Source: an uncultured Clostridia bacterium
Lineage (GTDB): Bacteria; Bacillota; Clostridia; Oscillospirales; CAG-272
Assembly: GCA_944381075.1 (NCBI GenBank)
Contig: CALWJT010000037.1
Location: 1 to 57,878, forward strand
Direction of reading: 5' to 3'
Length of the DNA: 57,878 nt
Part shown: positions 6,803 to 54,792 of the stretch, in pieces
How positions within the stretch are numbered: position 1 is the first letter of the stretch
How the letters are laid out: each line of letters starts with the position of its first letter
Notes under the pieces: model-generated
What the model was told of the DNA's origin: nothing
Seen by the model: only the letters and a program-made list of their open reading frames with translations
The model's database searches: none
Program-made: the position numbers and the translations under genes

Positions 6803-7750
6803 ATGAGCAAGAAAATTACAGTCATTGGCGCGGGAAGCGTCGGAGCAACCATCACGTATACGCTTTCTGTCATGGGCGTTGCGGATGAGATCGTCATGAT
6901 CGACATCAACGAAACCAAGGTGCTCGGCGAGGCGCTGGACATCCGACAGGGACTTCCGTTCTGCGGCACCCGTTCAGTATATGCCGGCGGCTATGCGGAA
7001 GCGGAAAATTCCGATATGGTCATCATTACGTCGGGGCTGCCGAGAAAGCCCGGACAGACCCGTCTCGAGCTGGCGCAGGTGAATGTGGATATTCTCAAGG
7101 GCATCATGCCGAAAATCACCAAATATGCGCCGGATGCGATCTACCTTTTGGTTGCCAATCCCGTGGATATTCTCACTTATACGTTTGTCAAGTATTCCGG
7201 GATCCCGGAGCACCGCGTGTTCGGGTCGGGGACCATGCTCGATTCCGTCCGCCTCCGTGCAAGGCTTGCGGAATATTATGATATCGATTCCAAATATATC
7301 ACTGCATATGCGCTTGGAGAACACGGCGATTCGATGTTCGTGCCGTGGTCGATCATGTCCATCAACGGGATTGGGACCCGGCTGTATGAAGAAAAGTGCG
7401 AAGAAAAGGGCAGCATGATGCCGGCGATTGACCGTGCGGAGATCGAAAAGTATGTCCGTACCTCCGGCGGCCGCGTCATTGCGAGAAAGGGCGCGACCTA
7501 TTATGCGGTTTCCATGTCGGTGGCGCATATGTGCCGCTGTGTGCTGGAGAATTTCGGCACGGTGCTGCCGGTATCCGTGATGATGCACGGAGAGCATGGC
7601 GTCAGCGACGTATGTCTCAGCTATCCCACGATGCTCAACTGCAACGGTGTGCAGACCAAGATCCCGACTCCGCTTTCCCCGGAGGAGGAGGCCCTGCTTC
7701 GCCGCAGCGCCGACGCATTGAAATCTGTGATTTCGGGACTTGCCTTTTAA
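6803..7750 (+). CDS. mdh: Malate dehydrogenase, lactate dehydrogenase-like family
   Basis: This 315-residue NAD-dependent 2-hydroxyacid dehydrogenase has a Rossmann GAGSVG (9-14), Asp34 for NAD preference, and the catalytic LGEHGDS His (about 174) with Asp147 and Arg150. The substrate-specificity loop reads LPRKPGQTR (79-87). Arg stands where lactate dehydrogenases have Gln (position 102 in classical numbering), which in this family marks malate dehydrogenase. Its place before fumarase supports oxaloacetate plus NADH to malate. The ATG at 6803 has aggatgg 8 bases upstream; the in-frame ATG at 6791 is too close to any ribosome binding site. Lactate dehydrogenase is the alternative, less likely. 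Confidence 0.85.
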   Translation: MSKKITVIGAGSVGATITYTLSVMGVADEIVMIDINETKVLGEALDIRQGLPFCGTRSVYAGGYAEAENSDMVIITSGLPRKPGQTRLELAQVNVDILKGIMPKITKYAPDAIYLLVANPVDILTYTFVKYSGIPEHRVFGSGTMLDSVRLRARLAEYYDIDSKYITAYALGEHGDSMFVPWSIMSINGIGTRLYEEKCEEKGSMMPAIDRAEIEKYVRTSGGRVIARKGATYYAVSMSVAHMCRCVLENFGTVLPVSVMMHGEHGVSDVCLSYPTMLNCNGVQTKIPTPLSPEEEALLRRSADALKSVISGLAF

Positions 7751-7875: not shown

Positions 7876-9261
7876 ATGGAATATCGTATAGAACATGATT
7901 CGATGGGCGAGGTCCGGGTGCCTTGCGACAAATACTGGGGCGCGCAGACCGAGAGAAGCCATGAAAACTTCAAGATCGGCGTCGGAATCGAGACGATGCC
8001 GCGGGAAATCACGCATGCGTTCGGAATCCTCAAAAAAGCGTGTGCAATCGCCAACCATGCGCTCAAGCCGGAGAAAATGACAGTGGCAAAGCTGCAGGCG
8101 ATATCCGCTGCCTGCGACGAGGTGATTGCGGGCGAGTTAAACGAGCATTTTCCCCTTGTTGTGTGGCAGACCGGCTCCGGCACGCAGTCCAACATGAACG
8201 CGAACGAGGTCATCGCCAGACGCGGCACGGAAATTGCGGGCGGTTCCTTGGAAAAGCCCCTGCATCCGAACGACGACATCAATATGAGCCAGTCCTCCAA
8301 TGATACGTTCCCGACGGCGATGCATATCGCGGCGGTGCTTGCCATTGAGGACAAGGTGTTCCCGGCGATCGACAGGCTTGTCGCCACGTTCCGCCGCCTG
8401 GAGGCGGAAAACGAGGGGATCGTCAAAAGCGGCAGAACGCATTTGCAGGATGCGACCCCGATTGCGTTTTCCCAGGAGATCAGCGGCTGGCGCTCCTCTC
8501 TGGAAAAGGATAAAAAGATGCTGGAGACGGCTCTTCCCGGACTGCGCGAGCTTGCGCTCGGCGGGACGGCGGTCGGCACCGGACTCAACGCGCCGCGCGG
8601 CTTTGATACAAAGGTCGCCGAAGCGGTATCCGAGCTTACGGGACGCACATTTGTGACGGCTCCGAATAAATTTCACGCGCTGACCTCTAAGGATGAGCTT
8701 GTGTTTGCGCATGGCGCGCTGAAAGCGCTTGCGGCAGATATGATGAAGATCGCCAACGACGTGAGATGGCTCGCTTCCGGTCCGCGCGACGGACTCGGCG
8801 AGATTTTTATCCCGGAAAATGAACCCGGCTCGTCCATTATGCCCGGCAAGGTCAATCCTACGCAGTGCGAGGCGGTGACGATGGTCGCCGTTCAGGTCAT
8901 GGGAAACGATGTGGCAGTCGGCATGGCGGCATCCCAGGGAAATTTTGAGCTGAACGTGTTCATGCCGGTCTGTATTTACAACTTCCTCCAGTCGGCAAGG
9001 CTGCTTGCGGAATCGATGGTATCGTTCAACGACAACTGCGCCGTCGGGATCCGCGCCAATAAGGAAAAAATGCGGCATAATCTCTACAATTCCTTGATGC
9101 TGGTGACGGCACTCAATCCGTATATCGGCTATGAAAACGCTGCGAAAACCGCAAAAAAGGCATATCACGACAATATTTCGCTGAAGGAAGCGTGTGTCGC
9201 GCTCGGCTTTTTGACAGCGGAAAAATTCGATGAGGTATTCCATCCTGAGGAAATGATATAA
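7876..9261 (+). CDS. fumC: Fumarate hydratase, class II
   Basis: This 461-residue class II fumarase interconverts malate and fumarate without an Fe-S cluster. The superfamily signature GSSIMPGKVNPTQ is intact, as are the GSGTQSNMNANEV substrate loop, the SSNDTFPTA segment and the GRTHLQDATP catalytic-His region. Its length is normal. The ATG at 7876 is preferred over a GTG at 7873 by ribosome-binding-site spacing. Its product is the substrate of the FrdAB pair encoded 6 kb downstream in the same operon, and hdrB follows after 12 bases. In this setting the enzyme probably runs toward fumarate. Confidence 0.95.
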   Translation: MEYRIEHDSMGEVRVPCDKYWGAQTERSHENFKIGVGIETMPREITHAFGILKKACAIANHALKPEKMTVAKLQAISAACDEVIAGELNEHFPLVVWQTGSGTQSNMNANEVIARRGTEIAGGSLEKPLHPNDDINMSQSSNDTFPTAMHIAAVLAIEDKVFPAIDRLVATFRRLEAENEGIVKSGRTHLQDATPIAFSQEISGWRSSLEKDKKMLETALPGLRELALGGTAVGTGLNAPRGFDTKVAEAVSELTGRTFVTAPNKFHALTSKDELVFAHGALKALAADMMKIANDVRWLASGPRDGLGEIFIPENEPGSSIMPGKVNPTQCEAVTMVAVQVMGNDVAVGMAASQGNFELNVFMPVCIYNFLQSARLLAESMVSFNDNCAVGIRANKEKMRHNLYNSLMLVTALNPYIGYENAAKTAKKAYHDNISLKEACVALGFLTAEKFDEVFHPEEMI

Positions 9262-9273
9262 GGAGGAAAAAAG

Positions 9274-10050
9274 ATGATTTTCAGTTATTACCCGGGCTGT
9301 ACGCTGAAAACAAAGGCCAAGGAGCTGGACGCCTACGCCAGACGGTCCGCCGAGGCGCTGGGCATCACACTTTCCGAGCTTCCGGAATGGCAGTGCTGCG
9401 GCGGCGTCTATACCACTGCGGAGGATGAGATCGCGACGAAGCTTTCTTCCGTGCGGGCGCTGATGGAGGCGAAGAAAGAGGGACATGCGCTGGTTACGCT
9501 TTGTTCGGCCTGTCATAATGTCATCAAGCAGACCCAATACGCCCTGAATACGGACGACGATATGGCGTTCAAGGTCGGAAATTATATGCAGTGCGACGCA
9601 AGGGCCGAGGCGGATACCAAGGTCATCCATTATCTGGAGCTCCTGCGCGATATTGTGGGCTTTGATGAACTAAAAAAGAATGTAAAAAATCCGCTTACCG
9701 GAAAGAAGATCGCCGCCTACTACGGATGTCTGCTGCTCCGTCCCAGCTCTGCCATGCAGTTTGACAACCCGGAAAATCCGAAGATTATGGAGGATTTTAT
9801 CCGTGCAATCGGAGCAACACCGGTGATCTATCCGATGCGCAACGAATGCTGCGGCGGATACATAACCGCGGAGGACCCGGCTATGGCAAAGAAAAACAGC
9901 ACCGCTGTATGGGAGAGTGCCAAGGACTTTGACGCGGACTATATCATCACGGCATGTCCGCTTTGCCGGTACAATCTCATCAAATCGGAAAGTCCGCTTC
10001 CGGTGATATATTTTACGGAGCTTCTTGCCGAAGCGCTGGATGTCAAATAA
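9274..10050 (+). CDS. hdrB: HdrB-like subunit with two CCG cysteine motifs
   Basis: This 258-residue soluble protein is homologous to heterodisulfide reductase subunit B. It has two complete CX(n)CCGX(n)CXXC motifs: Cys9, Cys41/42, Cys78/81; and Cys153, Cys193/194, Cys229/232. In HdrB these hold two non-cubane [4Fe-4S] clusters that reduce a disulfide or pass electrons on. A methanogen-type CoM-CoB disulfide is not expected here. The real acceptor is either another disulfide or, by context, the fumarate reductase encoded downstream. An aaggagg-type site precedes the ATG, and hdrC follows after 12 bases. Confidence 0.9.
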   Translation: MIFSYYPGCTLKTKAKELDAYARRSAEALGITLSELPEWQCCGGVYTTAEDEIATKLSSVRALMEAKKEGHALVTLCSACHNVIKQTQYALNTDDDMAFKVGNYMQCDARAEADTKVIHYLELLRDIVGFDELKKNVKNPLTGKKIAAYYGCLLLRPSSAMQFDNPENPKIMEDFIRAIGATPVIYPMRNECCGGYITAEDPAMAKKNSTAVWESAKDFDADYIITACPLCRYNLIKSESPLPVIYFTELLAEALDVK

Positions 10051-10062
10051 GGAGGGGTCAGG

Positions 10063-10452
10063 ATGCTTACGAATCGGGAAAAAGAACAGATACTCATCTC
10101 GAGCGGGGTCGATGTACGCAAATGCATGCGATGCGGCAAATGCACCGGCACCTGTCCTGCCTATGATGAGATGGAATACCATCCGCATGAATTTGTCTAT
10201 ATGGTGGAGAAGGGCGAAATCGAAAAGCTCATGAATTCCTCTTCCATTTATAAATGTCTTACCTGCTTTGCATGCGTGGAGCGCTGTCCGCGAGGTGTGG
10301 AGCCGGCGAAGATCATCGAGGCGGTGCGGCTTGCCGTGATCCGAAAACAGGGAAATAATCATATCAAGGCGGAAGATATTCCGTGCATGGCGGAGGATGA
10401 CGATACGCCGGGACAGCTTGTCGTCAGCGCTTTCCGCAAATATAAAAAGTGA
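10063..10452 (+). CDS. hdrC: HdrC-like 4Fe-4S subunit
   Basis: This 129-residue protein has two [4Fe-4S] motifs, CMRCGKCTGTCP (about 25-36) and CLTCFACVERCP (about 66-77). Their spacing matches heterodisulfide reductase subunit C, which wires HdrA to HdrB. There is no membrane segment. Its stop overlaps the region of the next gene's ribosome binding site. The same two-cluster arrangement recurs in the C-terminal half of FrdB at 15716, which suggests how electrons could be handed between the two proteins. Confidence 0.9.
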   Translation: MLTNREKEQILISSGVDVRKCMRCGKCTGTCPAYDEMEYHPHEFVYMVEKGEIEKLMNSSSIYKCLTCFACVERCPRGVEPAKIIEAVRLAVIRKQGNNHIKAEDIPCMAEDDDTPGQLVVSAFRKYKK

Positions 10453-10466
10453 GGGAGGGAAAACAA

Positions 10467-12458
10467 ATGCAGAAAATCGGTGTTTTTGTATGCCACTGCG
10501 GCACCAATATCGCCGGTACCGTCGATGTGAAGGCGGTGGCGGAGGCTCTCTCTCATGAACCGGGCGTGGTGTTTGCCGCGGACTATCCGTATATGTGCTC
10601 CGAATCGGGACAGAATCTCATCAAGGATGCCATCCGTGAGCACGGATTGACCGGTGTTGTGATCTGCTCCTGCTCACCCCGCATGCATGAGACGACGTTC
10701 CGCAAGGCGGCGGCGTCGGCAGGACTCAACTCCTACATGGTGGAGATTGCCAACATCCGCGAGCAATGCTCATGGATTCACAAGGATATGAAGACCGCGA
10801 CGGAAAAAGCGGTGATTCTGGGGCGCGCCGCCATCGCGAAGGTCGCGCTCAACACGCCGCTTACGGCAAGCGAGACCCCTGTGACCAAGCGCGCGCTTGT
10901 CATCGGCGGCGGCATTGCCGGCATTCAGACGGCGCTGGACATCGCGGACGCCGGCTTTGAGGTCGATATCGTCGAGAAGGAGCCGACCATCGGCGGCAAA
11001 ATGGCGCAGATCGACAAGACGTTTCCGACGCTTGACTGCGCGGCGTGTATCCTGACGCCGAAAATGGTGGACTGCGCGCAGAACGAAAAAATTCATATTT
11101 ATGCATACAGCGAGGTGGAGAGCGTCAAGGGCTTTGTCGGCAATTTTACGGTCGGAATCAAGAAAAAAGCGCGCTATGTCGATGAGACCAAGTGTACCGG
11201 CTGCGGGCTTTGCACCGAGAAATGCCCGATGAAAAAGACGCCGAACCTCTTTAACCTCGGACTCGATACCCGTTCCGCGATCTATATCCCCTTTGCGCAG
11301 GCAGTACCAAAGGTGGCGACCATCGACGCCGATTACTGCAATATGCTCAAAAACGGGAGGTGCGGCGTCTGCTCCAAGGTCTGCACGGCGGGCGCTATCG
11401 ATTATCATCAGCAGGATGAACATATCGAGGAAAAGTATGGTGCCATCGTTGTTGCGACGGGCTTCAATCCGATTAAGCTCGATAATTTCGACGAATACGC
11501 CTATGCGCAGAGTCCGGACGTCGTCACGTCCCTTGAGCTCGAACGCCTGATGAACGCCGCGGGTCCGAACGGCGGCACGCTGCTTCGTCCGTCGGATAAA
11601 ACGCATCCGCACACCATCGTATTCGTGCAGTGCGTCGGTTCGCGCGATACCTCCGGCTGTGGCAAGCCGTATTGCTCCAAGATCTGCTGCATGTACACGG
11701 CCAAGCACGCGATGCTCATCCGCGACAAATATCCCGACACGGAGGTCTATGTCTTCTATATCGACGTGCGCACGCCGGGCAAGAACTTCGATGAATTCTA
11801 CCGCCGTGCGGTCGAGGAATACGGCGTGCACTACATAAAGGGAATGGTCGGCAAGGTCATGCCGCAGAAAAACGGCAAGCTGCTTGTGCGCGCCTCCGAT
11901 CTTTTGGCGGGCGAGCAGCTGAAAATCGAGGCGGATATGGTGGTGCTTGCGGCGGCAATCGAGCCCGACAAGACGGCAAGATCGCTTGCGACGATGCTGA
12001 CCGCCTCCATGGATACCAACGATTTCTTTACGGAAGCGCACCCGAAGCTGCGTCCGGTGGAAAGTCCGACGGCGGGGATCTTCCTTTCCGGCGTCTGCCA
12101 GGGACCGAAGGACATACCGGAGACGGTCGCGCAGGCGAGCGCCGCCGCCGCGAAGGTCATCGGGCTGCTTGTCAAGGATAAGTTAAAATCCAACCCCTGC
12201 ATCGCGCATGCCAATGAGACGCTTTGCAACGGCTGTTCCTCCTGTGAGAGAGTATGTCCGTATGGGGCGATTACCTATGTCGACAAGGAATTCCGGATGC
12301 CTGACCGGACGACGAAAATCCGTCGTGTCGCGTCTGTCAACGCGGCGGTCTGCCAAGGATGCGGCGCCTGCACGGTCGCCTGTCCCTCGGGCGCGATGGA
12401 CCTTTCCGGATTCTCGAATCAACAAATCATGGCGGAGGTGGATGCGATATGCCGATAA
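10467..12458 (+). CDS. hdrA: HdrA-like FAD iron-sulfur subunit (candidate bifurcating subunit)
   Basis: This 663-residue flavoprotein is HdrA-like. The N-terminal domain carries VCHCGTN (8-14) and CSCSPRMHE (67-75). A Rossmann VIGGGIAGIQ (145-154) binds FAD, CAAC (191-194) belongs to the inserted cluster, and CTGCGLCTEKCP (about 243-254) is a ferredoxin motif. Another Cys-rich stretch lies near 303-320, and the C-terminus adds two [4Fe-4S] motifs, CNGCSSCERVCP and CQGCGACTVACP. In characterised Hdr complexes this FAD is the site of electron bifurcation. The ATG at 10467 follows agggaggg; an upstream in-frame start overlaps hdrC. The end overlaps the MvhD-like gene by 10 bases. Confidence 0.92.
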   Translation: MQKIGVFVCHCGTNIAGTVDVKAVAEALSHEPGVVFAADYPYMCSESGQNLIKDAIREHGLTGVVICSCSPRMHETTFRKAAASAGLNSYMVEIANIREQCSWIHKDMKTATEKAVILGRAAIAKVALNTPLTASETPVTKRALVIGGGIAGIQTALDIADAGFEVDIVEKEPTIGGKMAQIDKTFPTLDCAACILTPKMVDCAQNEKIHIYAYSEVESVKGFVGNFTVGIKKKARYVDETKCTGCGLCTEKCPMKKTPNLFNLGLDTRSAIYIPFAQAVPKVATIDADYCNMLKNGRCGVCSKVCTAGAIDYHQQDEHIEEKYGAIVVATGFNPIKLDNFDEYAYAQSPDVVTSLELERLMNAAGPNGGTLLRPSDKTHPHTIVFVQCVGSRDTSGCGKPYCSKICCMYTAKHAMLIRDKYPDTEVYVFYIDVRTPGKNFDEFYRRAVEEYGVHYIKGMVGKVMPQKNGKLLVRASDLLAGEQLKIEADMVVLAAAIEPDKTARSLATMLTASMDTNDFFTEAHPKLRPVESPTAGIFLSGVCQGPKDIPETVAQASAAAAKVIGLLVKDKLKSNPCIAHANETLCNGCSSCERVCPYGAITYVDKEFRMPDRTTKIRRVASVNAAVCQGCGACTVACPSGAMDLSGFSNQQIMAEVDAICR

Positions 12459-12886
12459 GCGAATTCAAACCGAAAATCGTCGCGTTCTGCTGCAACTGGT
12501 GCTCCTATGCGGGCGCCGACCTTGCGGGCACGAACCGCCTGAACTATCCCGCCGATGTGAAAATCATCCGCGTGCCGTGCTCCTGCCGCGTCAACCCGAT
12601 CTTTATCCTGCGTGCGTTCCAGAGAGGCGCGGACGGGGTGATTCTCTGCGGCTGCCATCCGGGCGACTGCCACTATACGACAGGCAACTACTATACCAGA
12701 CGCCGTATGACGCTGCTTTTCTCGATGCTTGACTATCTCGGCATCGAGAAGGAGCGCACCCGCGTCGAATGGGTCTCTGCTGCGGAGGGCGCGAAGTTCG
12801 CCGCCGTCATGCAGGACTTTGTAAAAACGGTAACGGAGCTTGGAGAAAACAAGAGATTGGAGGACCGCAGATGCAAGAAGCCATGA
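12449..12886 (+). CDS. floxD: MvhD/FloxD-like hydrogenase iron-sulfur subunit
   Basis: This 145-residue protein belongs to the MvhD family. Cysteines at FCCNWCSY (about 13-20), VPCSCR and LCGCHPGDCHY hold a [2Fe-2S] cluster. In methanogens MvhD passes electrons from hydrogenase to HdrA. No [NiFe]-hydrogenase is encoded here; the partners are the Flox-type subunits that follow, so it probably connects NADH-derived electrons to HdrA. The start lies inside the hdrA 3' end (10-base overlap), and its own end overlaps the next gene by 16 bases, indicating tight translational coupling. Confidence 0.88.
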   Translation: MPISEFKPKIVAFCCNWCSYAGADLAGTNRLNYPADVKIIRVPCSCRVNPIFILRAFQRGADGVILCGCHPGDCHYTTGNYYTRRRMTLLFSMLDYLGIEKERTRVEWVSAAEGAKFAAVMQDFVKTVTELGENKRLEDRRCKKP

Positions 12887-13839
12887 AAAAAAGAGCAAAA
12901 GAGCTCCTCGCCTCCGGTGAGGTCACAAGAGTCATCGGATGGAAGAAAAACGAATTTGATTACGATATCACGCCCGCAGTGTTTGAATCGGCGGAGGAGA
13001 TCGACCGCGATTTCCGCTATGACGATTTCTGCGGCCCGAATCTTTCCAAATTCACGTTCAAAAATCAGAAAAACGATACGAAAACACTGGTGTTCTTAAA
13101 GCCGTGCGACACTTACAGCATGACGCAGCTCATCACGGAGCATCGTGTGAACCGTGACGCGCTGTATCTTATCGGGATCCCGTGCTTTGGCAAAATCGAC
13201 ATCGAGAAAATCCGTGCGGACGGTACGGACGGTATCCTTTCGATTGCATCCGAAGGGGCGGATGTCACGGTAAAAACGCTTTACGGCGACAAGACCTATG
13301 TAAAGGCAGATGTGATGGCGGAGCGCTGTCTTGCCTGCAAGAGCAAGTATCATACGATTTACGACGAGCTGATGGGCGAGGAGGGCGAGGTCATGGAGAC
13401 CGGCCGCTTCAACGAGGTTGAAAAACTGGAAGCCATGACGCCGGACGAGCGGTTCGGCTTCTGGCGCGGCGAGCTTTCCCGCTGCATCCGCTGCAACGCC
13501 TGCCGGAACGCCTGCCCCGCCTGCACGTGCGAGAGCTGTGTGTTCGACAATCCGGATACCGGCATTTCTCAAAAAGCGGCGGCGGATTCCTTTGAGGAAA
13601 ACATGTTCCATATCATCCGCGCGTTCCATGTCGCGGGTCGCTGCACGGACTGCGGCGAGTGCTCAAGAGTTTGTCCGCAGCATATCCCGCTGCATCTGCT
13701 CAACCGCAAGTTTATCCGGGATATCGACAAGCTCTACGGCGAATATCAGGCCGGCGAGGAGGTCGGCCAGCGATCGCCGCTTGTGAATTTCACGACGGAC
13801 GACGCGGAGCCGGATATCGTCCGGAAGGGAGGAAAATAA
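12871..13839 (+). CDS. Flox-type 4Fe-4S subunit (FrhB/AsrA-related)
   Basis: This 322-residue protein has an N-terminal region resembling F420-hydrogenase/formate dehydrogenase beta subunits (LKPCDTYSMTQL near 69). A Cys motif ERCLACKSKY and two [4Fe-4S] motifs, CIRCNACRNACPACTCESC and CTDCGECSRVCP, follow. It matches one of the two iron-sulfur subunits (FloxB/FloxC) of Hdr-Flox clusters; I cannot say which letter applies. The ATG at 12871 follows ttggagga. It lies one base upstream of the next gene, so these subunits are made together. Confidence 0.82.
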   Translation: MQEAMKKRAKELLASGEVTRVIGWKKNEFDYDITPAVFESAEEIDRDFRYDDFCGPNLSKFTFKNQKNDTKTLVFLKPCDTYSMTQLITEHRVNRDALYLIGIPCFGKIDIEKIRADGTDGILSIASEGADVTVKTLYGDKTYVKADVMAERCLACKSKYHTIYDELMGEEGEVMETGRFNEVEKLEAMTPDERFGFWRGELSRCIRCNACRNACPACTCESCVFDNPDTGISQKAAADSFEENMFHIIRAFHVAGRCTDCGECSRVCPQHIPLHLLNRKFIRDIDKLYGEYQAGEEVGQRSPLVNFTTDDAEPDIVRKGGK

Positions 13840-13840
13840 G

Positions 13841-14866
13841 ATGGTCAGAATTTCTCTTGACAGCGTGAATGCTCTCTTCGCGGCGATCGCAGAGAGGGAA
13901 GCGCTTTATATCCCGACCGATACGGCGCCGGGCATCGCGCAGTTTAAAAAGTGGCAGTCCGGCATGGAAATGACGGAAAGGCTCAAGACCTCCCGCAGCG
14001 CGAAGGATTTCTTTTTCCCACAGACGGAGAATCTTGTGGATTTTAAGGTGAGCGGCAAGAAGATCGACATCATCGATCCGCGCGAGGAAACCGAGGATTT
14101 TGTCATCTTCGGCGTGCGCGCCTGCGACGCGAAAAGCTTTGAGATCCTGGATCGCGTATTCCTTTCGGAGCCGGTCGACACCTATTATCAGAACCGCCGC
14201 GCGCATGGCACCATCGTGACGCTTGCGTGCTCGCGTCCCTCCGAATCCTGCTTCTGCCAGACGTTCGGGATCGACCCCGCGGCGCCGGGCGGCGACGTTT
14301 CCGCATGGAAGCGTGAGGGTTTCCTGTATCTTGAACCGATAACGGAGAAGGGCAGGACGCTGCTTTCCGGACTCTCCGCTCTTTTGGAGGAATGTCCGGA
14401 GGATGCGGTCGAAGCGGAGAAGGAGAGCATCCGCGGCATTCTGAAAAAGCTGCCGCTTGCATCTCTTACGCCCGATGCGTTCGGCGGCGGAAAAACGGAG
14501 AAGTATTTTGATTCGGAAAAATGGAAGAGCCTTTCCGAGGCGTGCCTTGGATGCGGCACCTGCACCTTTGTCTGTCCGACCTGCCAGTGCTATGATATCC
14601 GGGATTTTGATACCGGGCACGGTGTGCGCCGCTTCCGCTGCTGGGACAGCTGCATGTACTCCGACTTCACGAAAATGGCGAGCGGGAATCCGCGGCTGAC
14701 GCAAAAAGAACGGTTCCGTCAGAGATTCATGCACAAGCTTGTCTATTATCCGGAGAACAACGATGGGATTTTCGGCTGCGTCGGCTGCGGCAGATGCGTG
14801 GAGAAGTGCCCGATTTCCATGAATATCGTCAAAGTGATGAAAACGCTGGGGGAGGATGAAACATGA
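13841..14866 (+). CDS. Flox-type 4Fe-4S subunit (AsrA / hydrogenase-beta-like)
   Basis: This 341-residue protein resembles the AsrA and sulfhydrogenase beta family. It has a VRACDAKSFEILD motif near 90 and Cys pairs at ACSRP and SCFCQ. Two C-terminal [4Fe-4S] motifs are present, CLGCGTCTFVCPTCQC (about 236) and CVGCGRCVEKCP (about 311). It should relay electrons between the FAD/NAD-binding subunit and HdrA. It begins one base after the previous stop and overlaps the next start as ATGA. Confidence 0.82.
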   Translation: MVRISLDSVNALFAAIAEREALYIPTDTAPGIAQFKKWQSGMEMTERLKTSRSAKDFFFPQTENLVDFKVSGKKIDIIDPREETEDFVIFGVRACDAKSFEILDRVFLSEPVDTYYQNRRAHGTIVTLACSRPSESCFCQTFGIDPAAPGGDVSAWKREGFLYLEPITEKGRTLLSGLSALLEECPEDAVEAEKESIRGILKKLPLASLTPDAFGGGKTEKYFDSEKWKSLSEACLGCGTCTFVCPTCQCYDIRDFDTGHGVRRFRCWDSCMYSDFTKMASGNPRLTQKERFRQRFMHKLVYYPENNDGIFGCVGCGRCVEKCPISMNIVKVMKTLGEDET

Positions 14867-15696
14867 ACGCTGAAACATTGATTCCGAAGGTCGGCGTCGT
14901 GACGGAGGTCAGAATCGACACGCCCGATATCAAGAATTTCCGCGTCGTCGGCACGGACGGCAAAAAGCTGTTTGTCCATAAGCCGGGCCAATGCGCGATG
15001 ATCTCGCTTCCCGGCATCGGAGAAGGCATGTTTTCGATCACCTCCTCTCCGACCAACACGGAATATATGGAATTTGAAATCAAAAAATGCGGATGTCTCA
15101 CAAGCTGGCTCCATAAGATCGAGGCGGGACAGGAAATTACGGTGCGCGGTCCTTACGGCAACGGCTTCCCGGTGGATGATGCCTTTGTCGGGCGCGACCT
15201 GCTCATCATTGCGGGCGGCGTCGGACTGGCGCCGGTGCGCTCGGTCATCAATTATTGCCGGCATTTCCGTGACCGTTATGGAAAAATCGATATCGTATAC
15301 GGTTCACGCACGAAGGAGGACCTCGCGTTTTATGAGGAGATCCTCCATGAGTGGATGAGCCCCGAGGAGAAGGACGTCCATGTCCACCTTACCATCGACC
15401 GTGAAGAAGAGGGTTGGAACGGGCATGTCGGCTTCGTGCCGAATTACGTGAAGGAGCTTGCCTTTGATACCGATAAAACCGTTATCATGTGCGGGCCGCC
15501 TATTATGATTAAATTCACGCTTGCGGGGCTCAAAGAGCTTGGCTTCGACGAGAAGCAGATTTACACGACCATGGAGCTTCGCATGAAATGCGGCGTCGGA
15601 AAATGCGGCAGATGCAACATCGGGTCAAAATACGTCTGCAAGGACGGTCCGGTGTTCCGAATGGATGAGCTCTCCGAGCTGCCGGACGAATATTAA
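14863..15696 (+). CDS. floxA: FloxA-like FAD/NAD(P)H-binding oxidoreductase subunit
   Basis: This 277-residue flavoprotein of the ferredoxin-NADP reductase superfamily resembles AsrB and dihydroorotate dehydrogenase electron-transfer subunits. An FAD-binding FSITSSP segment (about 56-62) comes first, then an NAD(P)-binding GGVGLAPVRS (about 117-126) and a terminal CGPP. The C-terminal CGVGKCGRCNIG...VC motif holds a [2Fe-2S] cluster. It is the likely NADH entry point of the complex. The start overlaps the previous stop as ATGA. FrdB follows after 19 bases, so the NADH module and the fumarate reductase are in one transcription unit. Confidence 0.88.
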   Translation: MNAETLIPKVGVVTEVRIDTPDIKNFRVVGTDGKKLFVHKPGQCAMISLPGIGEGMFSITSSPTNTEYMEFEIKKCGCLTSWLHKIEAGQEITVRGPYGNGFPVDDAFVGRDLLIIAGGVGLAPVRSVINYCRHFRDRYGKIDIVYGSRTKEDLAFYEEILHEWMSPEEKDVHVHLTIDREEEGWNGHVGFVPNYVKELAFDTDKTVIMCGPPIMIKFTLAGLKELGFDEKQIYTTMELRMKCGVGKCGRCNIGSKYVCKDGPVFRMDELSELPDEY

Positions 15697-15715
15697 GGAT
15701 GGGAGGATTTCTGAA

Positions 15716-16390
15716 ATGGAAAATATGGTAAACATCTTTCTATACGGCAAAAAATATGAGGTCCCGTCGAATCTGACCATCATGGGCGCGATGGAATACG
15801 CGGGATATCAGCTCGTGCGCGGCTGCGGCTGCCGGAACGGCTTCTGCGGCGCCTGCGCGACGATTTACCGCATCAAGGGAGACAATGAGCTCAAGGTATG
15901 CCTTGCCTGCCAGACCAAGGTGGAAAACGACATGTATATCGCGACGCTGCCGTTTTTCCCGCTTGTCAAGCAGGTCTATGACATGGAGAAGATCCGTCCT
16001 ACTGAACAGATCATGATGCAGCTCTATCCTGAGATTTATAGCTGTATCGGGTGCAATGCCTGCACGAAGGCCTGTACGCAGGGACTGAATGTCATGCAGT
16101 ACATCGCCTATGCGCAGAGAGGCGAGTTTGAAAAATGTGCCGAAGAATCCTTTGACTGCGTGATGTGCGGCGTATGCTCATCCCGCTGTCCCGCGGGGAT
16201 CTCGCATCCGCAGGTCGCGCTGCTTGCAAGGCGCCTCAACGGAAAATATCTCGCGCCGAAGTCCGAGCATTTGGAAAATCGTGTGCGCGAGATAAGAGAC
16301 GGAGACTTCAAGGAGCTGCTTGAGGGACTCATGCAGAAGCCGATCTCGGAGATGAAAGAGCTTTACAACAACAGGGAAATCGAAGCGTGA
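15716..16390 (+). CDS. frdB: Fumarate reductase iron-sulfur subunit (TfrB/HdrC-like, no membrane anchor)
   Basis: This 224-residue protein has an N-terminal plant-type [2Fe-2S] domain (CRNGFCGAC...VCLAC, about 39-64). It then has two complete [4Fe-4S] motifs, CIGCNACTKACT (about 103) and CVMCGVCSSRCP (about 143), spaced as in HdrC. Classical FrdB has a [3Fe-4S] site in this region. The layout resembles the first part of methanogen thiol:fumarate reductase TfrB, but the HdrB-like CCG domain of TfrB is absent and is encoded separately at 9274. The ATG at 15716 follows ggatgggagg. No cytochrome b or anchor gene adjoins it, so the enzyme should be soluble. Confidence 0.85.
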   Translation: MENMVNIFLYGKKYEVPSNLTIMGAMEYAGYQLVRGCGCRNGFCGACATIYRIKGDNELKVCLACQTKVENDMYIATLPFFPLVKQVYDMEKIRPTEQIMMQLYPEIYSCIGCNACTKACTQGLNVMQYIAYAQRGEFEKCAEESFDCVMCGVCSSRCPAGISHPQVALLARRLNGKYLAPKSEHLENRVREIRDGDFKELLEGLMQKPISEMKELYNNREIEA

Positions 16391-16402
16391 GGGGGCGAGA
16401 GA

Positions 16403-18022
16403 ATGTATAACGATAAAATGCTGGAATCCATGAAAAGAGTCGCGGAAAAGCGCGCGGCAAACGCAGCGCTCGAGCCGCGCAGAATGACAGCGGACGAGAA
16501 GGACGCTCTGCTCGCAAAATTTCATCCGGATTACAAAAGAGAAGAATTTGCGACGCTTTCCGTGGGAAAAAATAAAGGCGACAAGGTCCCGCGCGAGCTT
16601 CGCGCGCTTCTTGAGGCAGAAAGCCGGATCGACCCTGAAAAAATCGATTTGTCTCATCCGGATTATGAGACGGATGTTCTTGTCATTGGCGGCGGCGGCG
16701 CCGGAGCTTCCGCAGCCATTGAGGCAAATGCCGCCGGCGCGAAGGTTATGATCGTCACGAAGCTGCGCATCGGCGATGCGAACACCATGATGGCGGAGGG
16801 CGGCATCCAGGCGGCGGATAAGCCGAACGATTCGCCGGCGATCCACTATCTTGACGCTTTCGGCGGCGGACATTTTGCCGCAAAGCCGGAGCTGCTTTAC
16901 AAGCTGGTAAGCGAGGCGCCGGAGGCGATCCTCTGGCTGAATGAGCTCGGCGTCGAATTTGACAAGGCGCCGGACGGCACCATGATCACTACGCACGGCG
17001 GCGGCACCTCGCGCAAGAGAATGCATGCCGCGAAGGATTATTCCGGCGCGGAGATCATGCGCACGCTGCGCGACGAGGTTTTCAATCGGGAGATCCCGGT
17101 CGTGGACTTTACGGCGGCAATCGAACTCATTCTGGATGAAAACGGCCGCTGTGCGGGCGCGGTCCTCATGAATATGGAAACGAGGGAGCTCCTTGTCGCC
17201 AAGGCAAAGACCGTCATTCTTGCAACGGGCGGCGCCGGCAGGCTGCATTATCAGGGCTTTCCGACCTCCAATCACTATGGCGCGACGGCAGACGGTCTTG
17301 TGCTCGGCTACCGTGCCGGCGCAAAGCTGCTCTACGCCGATACGCTTCAGTATCATCCGACGGGAGCCGCGTATCCGGAGCAGATCTTCGGCGCGCTTGT
17401 GACGGAAAAGGTCCGTTCCATCGGTGCAAAGCTTGTCAATGCGGACGGCGAGGTGTTCATGCATCCGCTGGAAACGCGCGATGTGGCGGCAGCTTCCATT
17501 ATCCGTGAATGCACGGAGCGTGCAAAGGGAATTGCGACCTCAGACGGCGTCGGCGTATGGCTCGATACGCCGATGATCGAGCTTAAAAACGGAGAGGGGA
17601 CCATAGAAAAGAGGATTCCCGCAATGCTGCGTATGTTCGGCAAATACGGAATCGATATCCGCAAGGAGCCGATCCTTGTGTATCCGACGCTCCATTACCA
17701 GAACGGAGGACTTGACATCGATACCGACTGCATGACCGGCGTAGAAAATCTCTTCGCGGCGGGCGAGGTGGTCGGCGGGATCCATGGGCGCAACCGCCTG
17801 ATGGGAAATTCGCTGCTCGACGTCATCGTATTCGGCAGAGATGCCGGACGTGCCGCCGCGGCAAAATCTCAGTCTGTGACGGTAGGGACACTTACGCTTT
17901 CCCATGTCGCTCGCTTCGCCGCGGAGGTCAAAGCGGCCGGCGTTGCAAGCGATGCCGTATCTCCCAAGCTTCTTCCGACCTATACGCATGGAAATCCGAA
18001 GCTTGAGGACAAAAATCGTTAA
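16403..18022 (+). CDS. frdA: Fumarate reductase flavoprotein subunit (non-covalent FAD type)
   Basis: This 539-residue protein is of the SdhA/FrdA family. An unusual extension of about 90 residues precedes the FAD-binding VIGGGGAGAS (94-103). Catalytic signatures are present: QYHPTG (316-321), TRD (358-360), HYQNGG (431-436) and GRNRLMGNSLL (462-472). The His that covalently binds FAD in respiratory FrdA is replaced by Asn127 in NTMMAEGG, so FAD should be non-covalent, as in thiol:fumarate reductase TfrA and aspartate oxidase. Context (fumC, mdh, pckG, frdB) argues for fumarate to succinate rather than aspartate oxidation. Another enoate substrate is possible. Confidence 0.85.
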   Translation: MYNDKMLESMKRVAEKRAANAALEPRRMTADEKDALLAKFHPDYKREEFATLSVGKNKGDKVPRELRALLEAESRIDPEKIDLSHPDYETDVLVIGGGGAGASAAIEANAAGAKVMIVTKLRIGDANTMMAEGGIQAADKPNDSPAIHYLDAFGGGHFAAKPELLYKLVSEAPEAILWLNELGVEFDKAPDGTMITTHGGGTSRKRMHAAKDYSGAEIMRTLRDEVFNREIPVVDFTAAIELILDENGRCAGAVLMNMETRELLVAKAKTVILATGGAGRLHYQGFPTSNHYGATADGLVLGYRAGAKLLYADTLQYHPTGAAYPEQIFGALVTEKVRSIGAKLVNADGEVFMHPLETRDVAAASIIRECTERAKGIATSDGVGVWLDTPMIELKNGEGTIEKRIPAMLRMFGKYGIDIRKEPILVYPTLHYQNGGLDIDTDCMTGVENLFAAGEVVGGIHGRNRLMGNSLLDVIVFGRDAGRAAAAKSQSVTVGTLTLSHVARFAAEVKAAGVASDAVSPKLLPTYTHGNPKLEDKNR

Positions 18023-18067: not shown

Positions 18068-19861
18068 ATGAAGAATTTTACACAAAACAAGACGGTCCTT
18101 GCATGGATCGACGAGATGAAGGCGCTCCTTACGCCGGACCATGTGATGGTCATCGACGGCAGCGAGGAGCAGCTCGATGCGCTCCGCGCGGAGGCGGTCG
18201 CCACAGGTGAGATGATAAGACTCAATGAGGAAAAGCTCCCTGGATGCTATCTCCACAGAACCAAGCCCAACGACGTGGCGCGTGTTGAGGACAGAACCTT
18301 TATCTGTTCAAGGGAAAAAGAAAACGCCGGTCCTACCAACAACTGGTGCGATCCGAAGGAAATGTACGCAAAGCTCTATGATATCGCCCGCGGTTCCTAC
18401 AAGGGCAGGACCATGTATATCATCCCGTATTCCATGGGACCTATCGGCTCTCCGCTTGCCAAGATCGGCATTGAGGTGACGGATTCCATCTATGTCGTGC
18501 TCAACATGGCGATCATGACCCGCGTCGGCAGCAAGGTCTTTGAGGTCCTCGGCGACTCCAACGACTGGGTAAGAGGCCTGCATGCGAAATGCGACGTGGA
18601 TCCGGAGAAGAGATACATCTGCCAGTTTCCGGAGGACAACACCATTATTTCCGTAAACTCCGCATACGGCGGCAACGTTCTGCTCGGCAAGAAATGCTTT
18701 GCGCTTCGCATCGCTTCCTATCAGGGCTGGAAGGAAGGCTGGATGGCGGAGCACATGCTCATTCTCGGCGTCGAGAATCCGAAGGGTGAAATCAAGTATG
18801 TGGCGGCTGCGTTCCCGTCTGCCTGCGGAAAAACCAATCTCGCGATGATGATCCCGCCGGAATATCTGAGAAAGAAGGGCTATAAGGTCTGGACGGTCGG
18901 CGACGATATCGCATGGATGCGCATCGGCGCGGACGGCAGACTGTATGCCATCAATCCGGAGAACGGATTCTTCGGCGTGGCGCCTGGCACGAATGCACAT
19001 TCCAACTATAACGCGCTGGCGTCCACCAGAAAGAACACGATTTTTACCAATGTAGCGCTCAATACGGATGACAACACCGTGTGGTGGGAGGGACTTGACA
19101 AGAATCCTCCGGAGCATGCCATCGACTGGAAGGGCAATCCGTGGAATCCTTCGATGTATAACAAAGCGGATAAATCCACCTATGCGGCGCATCCGAACTC
19201 CCGTTTTACAGCTCCTGCCGTCAACTGCCCGTGTATTTCACCTGAATTTGACAAGGGAGCCGGCGTTCCGATCTCGGCTATCATCTTCGGCGGACGCCGT
19301 GCAAAATGCGCGCCGCTTGTCTATCAGTCCAAGAGCTGGGAGAATGGTGTATTTGTAGGCTCCGCCATGGCATCCGAGACGACTGCCGCCGCCGCCGGCG
19401 CGGTCGGCGTGGTACGCCGCGACCCGATGGCGATGCTTCCGTTCTGCGGATACAACATGGGAGATTATTTCGCTCACTGGCTTGAGATGGGCAAAAAGCT
19501 CGGCGATAAAGCGCCGAAGATCTTCAACGTCAACTGGTTCCGTACCGACGATGAGGGCAACTTCATTTGGCCGGGCTTCGGCGACAACATGAGAGTGGTC
19601 AACTGGATCATCGACCGCTGTGAGGGCAAGGCGGACGCTGTGGAAACCCCGATCGGCTATGTTCCGAGACCGGAAGATATCGACCTTACCGGTCTTGAGG
19701 ATTTCGATATCGAGAAGCTGAAATCCATTCTCGATGTGGATAAGAAGGTATGGGCGAAGGAAGCGGCAGAAATTGAAGAGCACTTCAAGAAATTCGGCGA
19801 TAAGCTTCCGAAGGAGCTGAAGAATCAGCTGGAAACGCTGAAGAAAGCAGTTGCCGAATAA
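18068..19861 (+). CDS. pckG: Phosphoenolpyruvate carboxykinase (GTP)
   Basis: This 597-residue enzyme is of the GTP-dependent class. The nucleotide loop FPSACGKTNLAM is at 249-260, with the hyper-reactive Cys252 typical of GTP enzymes, and the length matches. In a succinate-forming anaerobe it would run PEP plus CO2 plus GDP to oxaloacetate plus GTP, supplying malate dehydrogenase at 6803 and conserving a phosphate bond. A strong aaaggaaaggg site precedes the ATG. It is the last gene of the + strand succinate block, 45 bases after frdA without an intervening terminator, and ends at the hairpin 19892-19923. Confidence 0.96.
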   Translation: MKNFTQNKTVLAWIDEMKALLTPDHVMVIDGSEEQLDALRAEAVATGEMIRLNEEKLPGCYLHRTKPNDVARVEDRTFICSREKENAGPTNNWCDPKEMYAKLYDIARGSYKGRTMYIIPYSMGPIGSPLAKIGIEVTDSIYVVLNMAIMTRVGSKVFEVLGDSNDWVRGLHAKCDVDPEKRYICQFPEDNTIISVNSAYGGNVLLGKKCFALRIASYQGWKEGWMAEHMLILGVENPKGEIKYVAAAFPSACGKTNLAMMIPPEYLRKKGYKVWTVGDDIAWMRIGADGRLYAINPENGFFGVAPGTNAHSNYNALASTRKNTIFTNVALNTDDNTVWWEGLDKNPPEHAIDWKGNPWNPSMYNKADKSTYAAHPNSRFTAPAVNCPCISPEFDKGAGVPISAIIFGGRRAKCAPLVYQSKSWENGVFVGSAMASETTAAAAGAVGVVRRDPMAMLPFCGYNMGDYFAHWLEMGKKLGDKAPKIFNVNWFRTDDEGNFIWPGFGDNMRVVNWIIDRCEGKADAVETPIGYVPRPEDIDLTGLEDFDIEKLKSILDVDKKVWAKEAAEIEEHFKKFGDKLPKELKNQLETLKKAVAE

Positions 19862-19891: not shown

Positions 19892-19923
19892 CGGCTGCCA
19901 AATCCTTTTGGATTTGGCAGCCG
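19892..19923. terminator. Terminator between pckG and the convergent PQ-loop gene
   Basis: Perfect 14-bp arms CGGCTGCCAAATCC/GGATTTGGCAGCCG with a TTTT loop, preceded by AAAAAA. The A-run gives a good U-tract for the - strand; on + the tail is only moderately T-rich. Confidence 0.8.
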
Positions 19924-21275: not shown

Positions 21276-21920
21276 ATGGCTCAAAATGAAATATCCATCG
21301 CTACGATCCAGCGTCTTCCCATATATCTCGACTATTTAAAATCGATGACGGGCGGTGCGGAATATATCTCGGCAACGGCTCTTGCGTCGGCGCTTGGCTT
21401 CGGTGAGGTACAGGTCAGAAAGGATCTGGCTTCGGTCTGCTCGTCCGGAAAGCCTAAAATTGGATATCATGTAGAAGAGCTGAAAGCGGAGATCGAGGAA
21501 TATCTCGGATATCATAAAGCGAACAACGCTATTGTGATCGGCGCAGGCCGGCTTGGCTGTGCTCTTCTTGGATATGAAGGCTTCTCACGGTATGGACTGA
21601 ATATTCTTGCCGCTTTCGATATAGATGTATCTAAGGTGGGCAAAATGGAGAATGGGAAGCCTATTCTCAGCATGGAAGAGCTTGCCGGATTTTGCCGTCG
21701 TGAAAACGTGCAGATCGGGATCATCACCGTACCCGCGGTCCATGCCAAGCAGGCCTGCGAAGCGCTGCTCGCCGCTGGAATCTTAGCGATTTGGAACTTT
21801 GCTCCGATCCATTTGGATGTGCCGGAGTCTGTTATTATAAAAGATGAAAATATGGCGTGTTCTCTTGCCGTGCTCTCTACAAAGCTCGCCAAAAAGCTGG
21901 GAGAAAACGCCGCAACATAA
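21276..21920 (+). CDS. rex: Redox-sensing transcriptional repressor Rex
   Basis: This 214-residue Rex has an N-terminal winged helix (1-80, with SATALASALGFGEVQVRKDL at 32-51), a Rossmann VIGAGRLG (87-94) for NAD(H) and a C-terminal dimerisation segment. Rex senses the NADH/NAD ratio and represses fermentation and electron-transfer genes when NAD is high. The ATG follows aaaggagg. Linkage to a LysR gene and proximity to the NADH-linked fumarate-reductase block make those genes plausible targets. By eye, however, I found no clear TTGTTAAnnnnTTAACAA site in the window. Confidence 0.95.
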   Translation: MAQNEISIATIQRLPIYLDYLKSMTGGAEYISATALASALGFGEVQVRKDLASVCSSGKPKIGYHVEELKAEIEEYLGYHKANNAIVIGAGRLGCALLGYEGFSRYGLNILAAFDIDVSKVGKMENGKPILSMEELAGFCRRENVQIGIITVPAVHAKQACEALLAAGILAIWNFAPIHLDVPESVIIKDENMACSLAVLSTKLAKKLGENAAT

Positions 21921-51655: not shown

Positions 51656-51928
51656 ATGATTGTTCAGATCTGTGTTGGCAGCTCCTGCCATCTGAAAGGC
51701 TCTCATGAAATTGTGGAACTGATGAAAAAAGCGATAGCGGAGCATTCCCTGGAGGACGAGGTGACGCTTGCCGGCAGCTTCTGCATCGGAAAATGCAATC
51801 GGGTGGGGGTGACCATCCAAGTGGATGATGACGTCTATACCGGCATCACGCCGATGGGCTTCGATGAATTTTTCCGCGAACATATCCTCGAAAAACTGGG
51901 AAACCAAGGAGGAAAGGCTTATGGCTGA
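51656..51928 (+). CDS. Second thioredoxin-like [2Fe-2S] ferredoxin
   Basis: This 90-residue member of the same family has CVGSSC and CIGKC ligands. It diverges from its neighbour (KGSHEIVELMKKAI, with a longer C-terminus). The ribosome binding site ggaaaggag precedes the ATG, and the end overlaps the HydS-like gene by 8 bases. In related loci a small ferredoxin of this type precedes HydS-like genes, supporting a partnership with the protein at 51921. Confidence 0.87.
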   Translation: MIVQICVGSSCHLKGSHEIVELMKKAIAEHSLEDEVTLAGSFCIGKCNRVGVTIQVDDDVYTGITPMGFDEFFREHILEKLGNQGGKAYG

Positions 51929-53594: not shown

Positions 53595-54759
53595 TCTTTG
53601 TGCAGATATCGGATACCGCAGCGTGAACCATTACGGCGAGGAGCTTTGCGGCGATCATATCGATGTCATTGAGCAGGGCGACGGGTCCACGGTGATCGTG
53701 CTTGCCGACGGCCTTGGAAGCGGAGTCAAGGCGAGCATTCTGTCGACGCTCACGGCGAAGATCATTTCTACGATGATGGCGGCGGGACTGTCTTTGGAGG
53801 ACTGTGTGTCCACGATGGCGGCGACGCTTCCGGTGTGCTCTGTACGCGGCGTGGCCTATTCGACCTTTACCATCATACGGCTCGTGGACAACGAGTATGC
53901 GGAGATCATCCAGTACGACAATCCCGCCGTTATTCTGCTGCGGGACGGGCATGGCGTGGAGATCCCGAAAACGGAATCCGTCATTGGCGGGAAGATGATA
54001 TACCGTTCCCGCATCAAGCTTCAGGAAAACGATATTTTCATCGCAATGAGCGACGGCTGCATTCATGCAGGCGTCGGGCTTGCGTTGAACTTCGGGTGGG
54101 ACAGGAAGGACATCATTTCCTATATGGAAACGTTTTACGGGGTCGGCTTCACGGCCAAAACGCTCTCTACTATCCTGCTCGACGAATGCAACCGTCTTTA
54201 TGACGGAAAGCCGGGGGACGACACGACGGTATGCACGGTCAGGATCCGGAAGCGTGAGCCGATGAATCTTTTGTTCGGGCCGCCGTCCAATCGGGACGAC
54301 TGCGATAAAATGATGTCGCTCTTCTTTTCCAAGGAGGGAAAGCATATCGTCTGCGGCGGCACGACCTCGTCGATTGCCGCGCGCTATCTTGGGAAAACCG
54401 TTCGGACCGAACTGAATTTCGTCGATCCCGATATCCCGCCGATCGCCCATATCGACGGCGTCGATCTTGTGACAGAAGGCGTCATTACCATCAATAGGGT
54501 GCTGGAATATGCAAAAGATTATCTGAAAGATAATGAGGCTTACAAGGATTGGAGCTACAAGCAGGACGGCGCCTCTATGATCTGCCGGCTTTTGTTTGAG
54601 GAGGCGACGGATATCAATTTCTTTGTTGGGCGCGCAATGAATCCGGCGCATCAAAATCCGGAGCTTCCCATCAATTTCAATATCAAAATGCAGCTTGTGA
54701 GCGAGCTTTCGGAATGCCTGAAGAAGATGGGAAAACGGATCAAGGTCAGCTATTTTTAA
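53587..54759 (+). CDS. SpoIIE-type PP2C serine phosphatase
   Basis: This 390-residue protein has a SpoIIE/PP2C core in the first 220 residues. Metal-binding motifs are LADGLGSG (about 39-46), MSDGC (about 155-159) and GDDTTVC (about 213-219). A C-terminal domain of about 165 residues is unassigned. No membrane segment is present. The 8-base overlap with the HydS-like gene implies stoichiometric production and direct signalling. The substrate could be a phosphoprotein made by the kinase at 50603 or another target. Confidence 0.88.
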   Translation: MNNLCADIGYRSVNHYGEELCGDHIDVIEQGDGSTVIVLADGLGSGVKASILSTLTAKIISTMMAAGLSLEDCVSTMAATLPVCSVRGVAYSTFTIIRLVDNEYAEIIQYDNPAVILLRDGHGVEIPKTESVIGGKMIYRSRIKLQENDIFIAMSDGCIHAGVGLALNFGWDRKDIISYMETFYGVGFTAKTLSTILLDECNRLYDGKPGDDTTVCTVRIRKREPMNLLFGPPSNRDDCDKMMSLFFSKEGKHIVCGGTTSSIAARYLGKTVRTELNFVDPDIPPIAHIDGVDLVTEGVITINRVLEYAKDYLKDNEAYKDWSYKQDGASMICRLLFEEATDINFFVGRAMNPAHQNPELPINFNIKMQLVSELSECLKKMGKRIKVSYF

Positions 54760-54792
54760 GGGAATTATCATGGAGAAAGGAAGGTTTCGGCT

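Follow-up and report, generated by a model that had tools for sequence, protein, structure and literature searches.

Coupling of fumarate reduction to ferredoxin was proposed in 2020 for Pseudoclostridium thermosuccinogenes (PMC7282089), where it has the status of an assumption. A "succinate operon" is described there with genes for a fumarase (RS03365), an NADH dehydrogenase/heterodisulfide reductase (RS03360-30) and a fumarate reductase (RS03325-20); its expression rose about fourfold when CO2 was limiting, although the change was not significant for every subunit. The paper also reports from the work of others that succinate production nearly ceased on addition of H2, and reads this as fitting ferredoxin coupling; a preprint of 2019 (10.20944/preprints201912.0288.v1) is also cited. 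Transformation and CRISPRi have been described for this species (PMC9044749). Here we describe an operon from an uncultured Clostridia bacterium (lineage CAG-272) in which genes for HdrABC and Flx proteins directly precede the fumarate reductase genes frdB and frdA. It is located on contig CALWJT010000037.1 of assembly GCA_944381075.1, the 57,878 nucleotides of which were analysed as a whole and are called the window in the following.

FlxABCD-HdrABC of Desulfovibrio, which Ramos et al. are said to have described in 2015, and Hdr-Flox of D. alaskensis, attributed to Meyer et al. in 2014, reportedly have a thiol carrier as acceptor. CCG proteins which feed enzymes of the fumarate reductase type are known as TfrB, as SdhE of the methylmenaquinol enzyme and from type E succinate:quinone reductases; sequence links to TfrB and SdhE were seen in the NCBIfam model matches of the present proteins.

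We think it probable, taking the explanation as a whole, that the operon encodes a bifurcating fumarate reductase, Flx-HdrABC-FrdAB: the nine proteins would form one soluble complex that reduces fumarate to succinate with NADH. The operon is another member of the kind proposed for P. thermosuccinogenes, and the bifurcation hypothesis is not new; the first-pass annotation of the window had named no example of this assembly, but PMC7282089 already contains both this operon order and this hypothesis. An assay of such a complex was not found in the literature searched, most subscription journals and all preprints being outside its coverage. New are the near-perfect tie of the two gene sets within the class, their breadth in gut and rumen Clostridia and the missing UbiA and Sdh_cyt matches in most carriers tested; also new are HdrB as the only CCG protein, the asparagine at the FAD position of FrdA, other gene orders, and counter-cases without Hdr.

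Gene set and operon structure

The element consists of nine open frames, all on the + strand, between 9274 and 18022:

hdrB, 9274-10050, + strand: 258 amino acids, two CCG domains (Pfam)
hdrC, 10063-10452, + strand: 129 amino acids, two [4Fe-4S] motifs; Fer4 dicluster (Pfam)
hdrA, 10467-12458, + strand: 663 amino acids, FAD protein with ferredoxin domains; matches to HdrA models and 5odc_A
mvhD or flxD-like, 12449-12886, + strand: FlpD family, PF02662 with 187.5 bits
flxC-like, 12871-13839, + strand: 4Fe-4S subunit, Fer4 dicluster matches only; flx name from position
flxB-like, 13841-14866, + strand: relative of AsrA and sulfhydrogenase beta; Fer4_22 107 bits, ShyB 176 bits (model cut-off 690)
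flxA-like, 14863-15696, + strand: NAD(P)H-binding flavoprotein with [2Fe-2S] motif; NAD_binding_1 and DHODB_Fe-S_bind
frdB, 15716-16390, + strand: [2Fe-2S]-type domain and two [4Fe-4S] motifs; Fer2-type plus Fer4 (Pfam)
frdA, 16403-18022, + strand: flavoprotein of 539 amino acids; FAD_binding_2 (Pfam), best NCBIfam model TfrA

With the likely starts, every junction from hdrB to frdA is an overlap (10 bases for hdrA-mvhD, 16 for mvhD-flxC, 4 for flxB-flxA) or a gap not exceeding 19 bases (hdrB-hdrC 12, hdrC-hdrA 14, flxC-flxB 1, flxA-frdB 19, frdB-frdA 12). The first-pass annotation, which had reported nine contiguous genes on one strand with overlaps or gaps under 20 bases and no membrane anchor in the run, was right in this, as well as in coordinates and names; the run itself is longer, since an mdh-like gene, fumC and a phosphoenolpyruvate (PEP) carboxykinase gene had been missed.

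The Flx-HdrABC set is complete, i.e., hdrA, hdrB, hdrC, mvhD/flxD, the NAD-binding flxA and two Fe-S flx genes are present; flxB and flxC were assigned by family and position, not by comparison to Desulfovibrio sequences. Against the NCBIfam HdrA2 model HdrA scored 809 bits, under the cut-off of 1100, and the crystallised methanogen HdrA (5odc_A) aligned over HdrA residues 3-661 with E 2.3e-212. Invariant cysteines numbered 22 of 33 in HdrA (81 rows), ten in HdrB (77 rows) and 8 in HdrC (74 rows). The best NCBIfam match of HdrB was SdhE (129 bits, under the cut-off of 500), and the closest PDB relative of FlxA was sulfhydrogenase gamma, 9nez_C.

One in-frame TGA was noticed in hdrA or mvhD of many relatives in the phylum, which is possibly selenocysteine; the copies in the window contain none.

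Conservation of the operon

In a scan of named genomes the best 80 FrdA relatives (77-88% identity; more exist) were inspected. Their titles refer mostly to metagenome-assembled gut and rumen Clostridia; records of cultured strains carrying the operon were those of Ruminococcus flavefaciens YL228 and YRD2003 and of Eubacterium coprostanoligenes ATCC 51222. The operon is thus apparently widespread in gut and rumen Clostridia. All nine genes were open and in the order of the window in 63 of the 80 loci; the remaining 17 are cut by contig ends, which lie no more than 786 bases from their leftmost complete gene. In one locus (L052) flxB was not an open frame, yet was visible by tblastn.

Two bins labelled Treponema (L020, L030) carry the Clostridia-type operon, with FrdA identities of 82% and 80%; these could be due either to transfer or to mis-binning.

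The class sample comprised 196 genomes, with thresholds of E up to 1e-90 for FrdA and up to 1e-150 for HdrA; at most 6-7 candidates were scored per genome, and extra copies may be missed. FrdA was present in 28 genomes, HdrA in 29 and both in 27, i.e., HdrA occurred in 27 of 28 FrdA-positive but in 2 of 168 FrdA-negative genomes (Fisher p 1e-29, kinship not corrected). The genome with FrdA only is 75% complete; of those with HdrA only, one contains a distant HdrA (49% identity) and one is 62% complete. In 23 of the 27 genomes the two genes shared contig and strand, at a distance of 3942-4064 bases; in four they were on separate contigs. A chance neighbourhood of the hdr/flx and frd genes is ruled out by this co-occurrence.

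Properties of FrdA and FrdB

FrdA matches succinate dehydrogenases and fumarate reductases, with 7d6v_A as top PDB chain (E 3.7e-62) and E 2e-49 against E. coli FrdA (1kf6_A); to the TfrA model it scored 354 bits, under the cut-off of 718. Its N-terminus is extended by about 88 residues, and Pfam gave no match to the flavoprotein domain that usually forms the C-terminal part. The fumarate site contains His318, Thr334, Glu335, Arg338, Arg359, His431 and Arg465. In an alignment of 111 rows (window, 80 named loci, 30 sequences from phylum genomes), through which the residue numbers of E. coli FrdA were placed, the equivalents of His232, Thr244, Glu245, Arg248, Arg287 and His355 were kept in 111 of 111 rows and that of Arg390 in 110, the remaining row having a gap there. 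Instead of the FAD-linking His44, all 111 rows have Asn (Asn127 in the window); FAD is therefore probably not covalently bound, judging from the alignment. Non-covalent FAD is expected for an enzyme working towards succinate.

An assignment of FrdA as L-aspartate oxidase (NadB) was rejected, since the nadB model gave 277 bits, below the cut-off of 452.75, and the gene run is one for succinate formation.

By sequence, FrdB resembles SdhB/FrdB only weakly (TIGR00384, 31 bits, under the cut-off of 88). Its [2Fe-2S]-type domain is followed by two CxxCxxCxxxC motifs, the eight cysteines of which are invariant in 106 rows; a CCG domain was not matched with Pfam.

Quinone, anchor, CCG and ferredoxin-related genes

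The genome from which the window originates is 93.6% complete and yielded no match to UbiA (PF01040). UbiA was over the cut-off in 4 of the 28 FrdA-positive class genomes and sub-threshold in three more; 16 of the 80 named-locus genomes were tried, with no UbiA in 13 and a match in 3 (L061, L079, L004), whereby the family has other members and a match is no proof of quinone. L061 and L079 are both labelled Ruminococcus flavefaciens, as are two records without UbiA (L046, L075). Sdh_cyt (PF01127) had no match in the own genome, nor in any of the 28 class genomes; the families FrdC and FrdD were not searched. For lack of UbiA and Sdh_cyt matches, we rejected the idea that the own genome encodes a quinol enzyme whose Sdh_cyt anchor gene is located elsewhere.

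CCG domains were detected in 27 of the 28 genomes. In 26 of them they made up the two halves of a single protein and occurred nowhere else, whereas two more were present in G468. HdrB is thus the only CCG protein found in the own genome, and the same holds for 26 of the 27 class genomes that carry both gene sets, so that there a second CCG site for a separate thiol:fumarate reductase is lacking. A complete TfrAB-like thiol enzyme was rejected for the same reason.

RnfC was over the cut-off in 14 of the 28 FrdA-positive class genomes. A PF02906 hydrogenase was matched in 27 of them, with four matches in the own genome, in which reduced ferredoxin would most simply leave as hydrogen.

Proposed electron path and energetics

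Electrons from NADH would enter at FlxA and pass through FlxB/FlxC and MvhD to the flavin of HdrA, where each pair would be split. One electron could then reach FrdB, FrdA and finally fumarate (+33 mV) by way of HdrC and the pair of noncubane clusters in HdrB, and the other would reduce ferredoxin. The overall reaction would be: 2 NADH + fumarate + oxidised ferredoxin -> 2 NAD+ + succinate + reduced ferredoxin. HdrB would serve here to relay electrons rather than to catalyse thiol chemistry.

A soluble, NADH-fed Hdr/Flx complex which passes electrons to FrdAB is well supported, because the genes are conserved together, UbiA and Sdh_cyt genes are missing, and HdrB is the only CCG protein; reduction of fumarate by NADH through HdrB appears likely. 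Coupled reduction of ferredoxin, with homology of HdrA and MvhD and thermodynamics as its basis, we regard as fairly probable. The proposal in the first-pass annotation of an NADH-driven, electron-bifurcating fumarate reductase is accordingly supported in part: the NADH-fed complex can be retained, and the bifurcating part is fairly probable.

Ferredoxins have potentials of -420 to -500 mV, for which the computed dG0' of the coupled reaction amounts to -48.8 to -33.4 kJ/mol; uncoupled reduction of fumarate by NADH releases 68 kJ/mol. The other potentials used were +33 mV for fumarate and -320 mV for NAD (PMC5861303).

The 68 kJ/mol of the uncoupled reaction would suit a complex of the same composition without bifurcation, i.e., a simple soluble NADH:fumarate reductase that leaves ferredoxin untouched and uses HdrA only as a wire. 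Everything that speaks for the complex agrees with it equally, and RnfC over the cut-off is missing in half of the FrdA-positive class genomes, including the own one. Nevertheless such an enzyme seems unlikely, since HdrA plus MvhD are the bifurcating pair of methanogens, to which 5odc_A provides a link in sequence, and two thirds of the cysteines of HdrA are invariant. A feed of seven subunits would be costly for a wire, and the hydrogenases found in nearly all of these genomes could use the ferredoxin.

Fumarate reductase genes in the wider phylum

In a sample of 299 genomes of the phylum (both proteins at 1e-90, at most 4 candidates scored per genome), FrdA was found in 30, HdrA in 110 and both in 27 genomes. 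HdrA was present without FrdA in 83 of 269 genomes. For the 30 FrdA matches that do not come from the own genome, neighbourhoods of up to 19.5 kb were inspected, with open frames listed for 13.

The full set occurs in another order in G257 (hdrC-hdrB-hdrA-mvhD-flxCBA-frdBA), and four genomes (G005, G052, G056, G095) contain all nine genes with frdBA first. Eight loci showed hdr genes, mvhD and a flxC-like gene and no flxA or flxB match, one of them (G254) being cut by the contig end. In G252 and G044, hdrC-hdrB stand directly before frdB-frdA and no hdrA was present in the stretch read; these hdrC-hdrB-frdB-frdA loci suggest HdrBC and FrdB as the contact or docking pair. In G185, G010, G210 and G130 (by eye) and in G235 (tblastn), frdBA has a fumarase, malic enzyme or mdh-like gene as neighbour.

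Neighbours of frdBA which by eye are membrane Fe-S or cytochrome-like proteins were seen in G033, G039 and G091; a weak hdrC-like match downstream was also present in G075 and G080. UbiA was over the cut-off in all five, and the FrdBA module there may be quinone-linked, because of the membrane Fe-S neighbours and UbiA. The loci concerned are L134, L128 and L158, and more weakly L133 and L135; by eye, the membrane Fe-S proteins there are like cytochrome b or of the NrfH/RnfG type.

In a tree of FrdA (44 rows; a quick tree with the Shimodaira-Hasegawa-like approximate likelihood ratio test, SH-aLRT, only) the full set appeared in three separate places, and the starred branches force at least 2 changes for the group of the window type plus G257. 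The three full-set groups were likewise apart in a tree of HdrA (32 rows). Either the Hdr-Frd link arose repeatedly, or an ancient link was lost in places and its genes were rearranged; under either history the separate lineages favour a functional tie, and not an unbreakable one. FrdAB could perhaps be a portable soluble fumarate reductase that docked repeatedly onto Hdr-type bifurcation machines via HdrBC, with HdrB as a pure relay; we give this about even chances.

Several findings weigh against the proposed enzyme. FrdA is without HdrA in 3 of the 30 phylum genomes: G067, G071 and G296 contain FrdAB and have no matches to HdrA (at 1e-90), MvhD or CCG, so Hdr is not needed for every FrdAB. 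Here frdBA stand directly after a pyruvate carboxylase-like gene (by eye) in G296 (L145) and G071 (L147), and alone in G067 (L149). In G185, G010, G210 and G235 they are apart from the hdrBCA-mvhD-flxC genes of the same genome. The wider family hence speaks for modularity and against a fixed pair of FrdAB and Hdr, and a shared operon can mean shared regulation instead of a complex. UbiA in 4 of 28 class genomes and 3 of 16 named genomes implies that some carriers may have quinones. In the own genome RnfC does not reach the cut-off, which leaves [FeFe] hydrogenases to use the reduced ferredoxin. AlphaFold models were of low confidence, with a predicted local distance difference test (pLDDT) value of 61 for FrdA and 54 for FrdB; a PDB fold search with the FrdA model ranked E. 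coli FrdA first, and because the template modelling (TM) score was 0.40 it adds little to the sequence match. In P. thermosuccinogenes, Na2S had an effect opposite to that of H2, according to PMC7282089.

The first-pass annotation had suggested a search for co-occurrence, and within the class the pairing bears it out; independent conservation of the two sets in relatives, which it had named as contrary evidence, is seen in part, namely in the phylum. Two independent enzymes in one operon have thus to be considered, a Flx-Hdr bifurcating to an unknown disulfide and FrdAB fed by ferredoxin or by a thiol made by Hdr. The genomes with only one of the sets agree with this, and thiol:fumarate reductase of methanogens is a precedent for a thiol donor. 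We nevertheless judge it quite unlikely, since FrdB without CCG and HdrB as sole CCG protein leave no second thiol-oxidising site of this type in 26 of 27 genomes; the nearly complete pairing of the two sets in the class speaks against it as well, as does the occurrence of all nine genes in distinct lineages and gene orders. Ferredoxin could still be the donor of FrdAB.

Neighbouring genes

The gene run of the proposed Flx-HdrABC-FrdAB enzyme is extended on both sides:

mdh-like gene, 6803-7750, + strand: lactate/malate dehydrogenase family; TIGR01771 322.9 bits, cut-off 303.55
fumC, 7876-9261, + strand: class II fumarate hydratase; TIGR00979 718 bits, cut-off 664.75
PEP carboxykinase, 18068-19861, + strand: GTP-dependent; NF003253 883 bits, cut-off 504
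hairpin, 19892-19923, no strand assigned: 14 pairs, terminator-like score on the - strand; the tail on the + strand is GGATATCTTT

The mdh-like gene and fumC are separated by 125 bases, the end of fumC and hdrB by 12, frdA and the PEP carboxykinase gene by 45; the hairpin is the probable end of the run. These flanking genes are important because they complete the branch from PEP over oxaloacetate, malate and fumarate to succinate. Contig ends limit the counts among the 80 named loci, of which 59 had fumC, 35 an mdh-like gene and 2 a PEP carboxykinase gene (adjoining frdA). In the window, NCBIfam calls the mdh-like gene L-lactate dehydrogenase. Its specificity loop reads GLPRKPGQTR, the Arg in which we take to be the residue selecting malate over lactate; the evidence therefore leans towards malate dehydrogenase, and the automatic name is possibly wrong.

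With fumC and PEP carboxykinase in the run, the direction would be that of succinate formation. The complex could also run in reverse, oxidising succinate and reduced ferredoxin together to form NADH (confurcation), as for a syntroph; enzymes of the HdrA type are reversible in principle, and related hdr-frd clusters exist in other classes (type 3 loci). This is highly improbable here, as PEP carboxykinase, fumarase and the mdh-like gene are present as in succinate formation, the reaction would be uphill by 33-49 kJ/mol under standard conditions, and Asn at the FAD-link position should impair succinate oxidation, as expected from the His44 mutants of E. coli FrdA.

A gene for the redox repressor Rex (21276-21920, NCBIfam 270 bits) is located 1.4 kb beyond the succinate run. 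A search for Rex operators gave 1 match with 3 mismatches where 1.5 were expected, and none stood out; a promoter scan found 19 against 10 expected, with no clear start for the gene run.

Three + strand genes at 51825-56223 code for an [FeFe] hydrogenase-like protein with a sensory-looking C-terminal part, a SpoIIE-like phosphatase and a monomeric [FeFe] hydrogenase (TIGR04105, 568 bits, cut-off 450). They resemble a sensory-plus-catalytic hydrogenase module of Ruminococcus albus, and this module may be an outlet for reduced ferredoxin.

Significance and comparison with known systems

If the proposed enzyme exists, fumarate reduction in succinate-forming gut and rumen Clostridia, mostly without UbiA or Sdh_cyt genes, would be explained, and flavin-based electron bifurcation would gain fumarate as an acceptor. 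What is assumed about the balance of energy and hydrogen when these bacteria form succinate would change. If FrdAB is indeed a portable module, a membrane-free fumarate respiration could operate in gut and rumen Clostridia without quinone genes, the energy being saved as reduced ferredoxin.

Compared with E. coli quinol:fumarate reductase FrdABCD, the active-site residues of FrdA are shared; a Sdh_cyt anchor, the FAD-linking His and a match to the C-terminal flavoprotein domain are missing here, and the cluster motifs of FrdB are different. In 8-methylmenaquinol:fumarate reductase SdhABE and the type E quinone reductases an HdrB-like SdhE likewise passes electrons to the Fe-S subunit, but these are quinol enzymes, whereas the own genome has no UbiA match. 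Methanogen TfrAB is similar in that TfrA is the best NCBIfam match of FrdA and that CCG-type clusters feed a fumarate reductase; TfrB, however, has a fused CCG part, whereas HdrB is separate here and NADH via Flx-HdrA would be the source. FlxABCD-HdrABC of Desulfovibrio, made up of HdrABC, MvhD-like FlxD, NAD-binding FlxA and the Fe-S proteins FlxB and FlxC, corresponds to the first seven genes; it is not known to have frdBA in its run, in contrast to the window, where frdBA follows directly.

The closest counterpart is the operon of P. thermosuccinogenes: the order in the window (fumarase, seven Flx-Hdr genes, two fumarate reductase genes) matches the list of locus tags in PMC7282089, a comparison made by tags, with seven Flx-Hdr genes if the tags run in fives. 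There, a hypothetical protein, possibly a succinate transporter, comes next, whereas in the window the fumarate reductase genes are followed by PEP carboxykinase.

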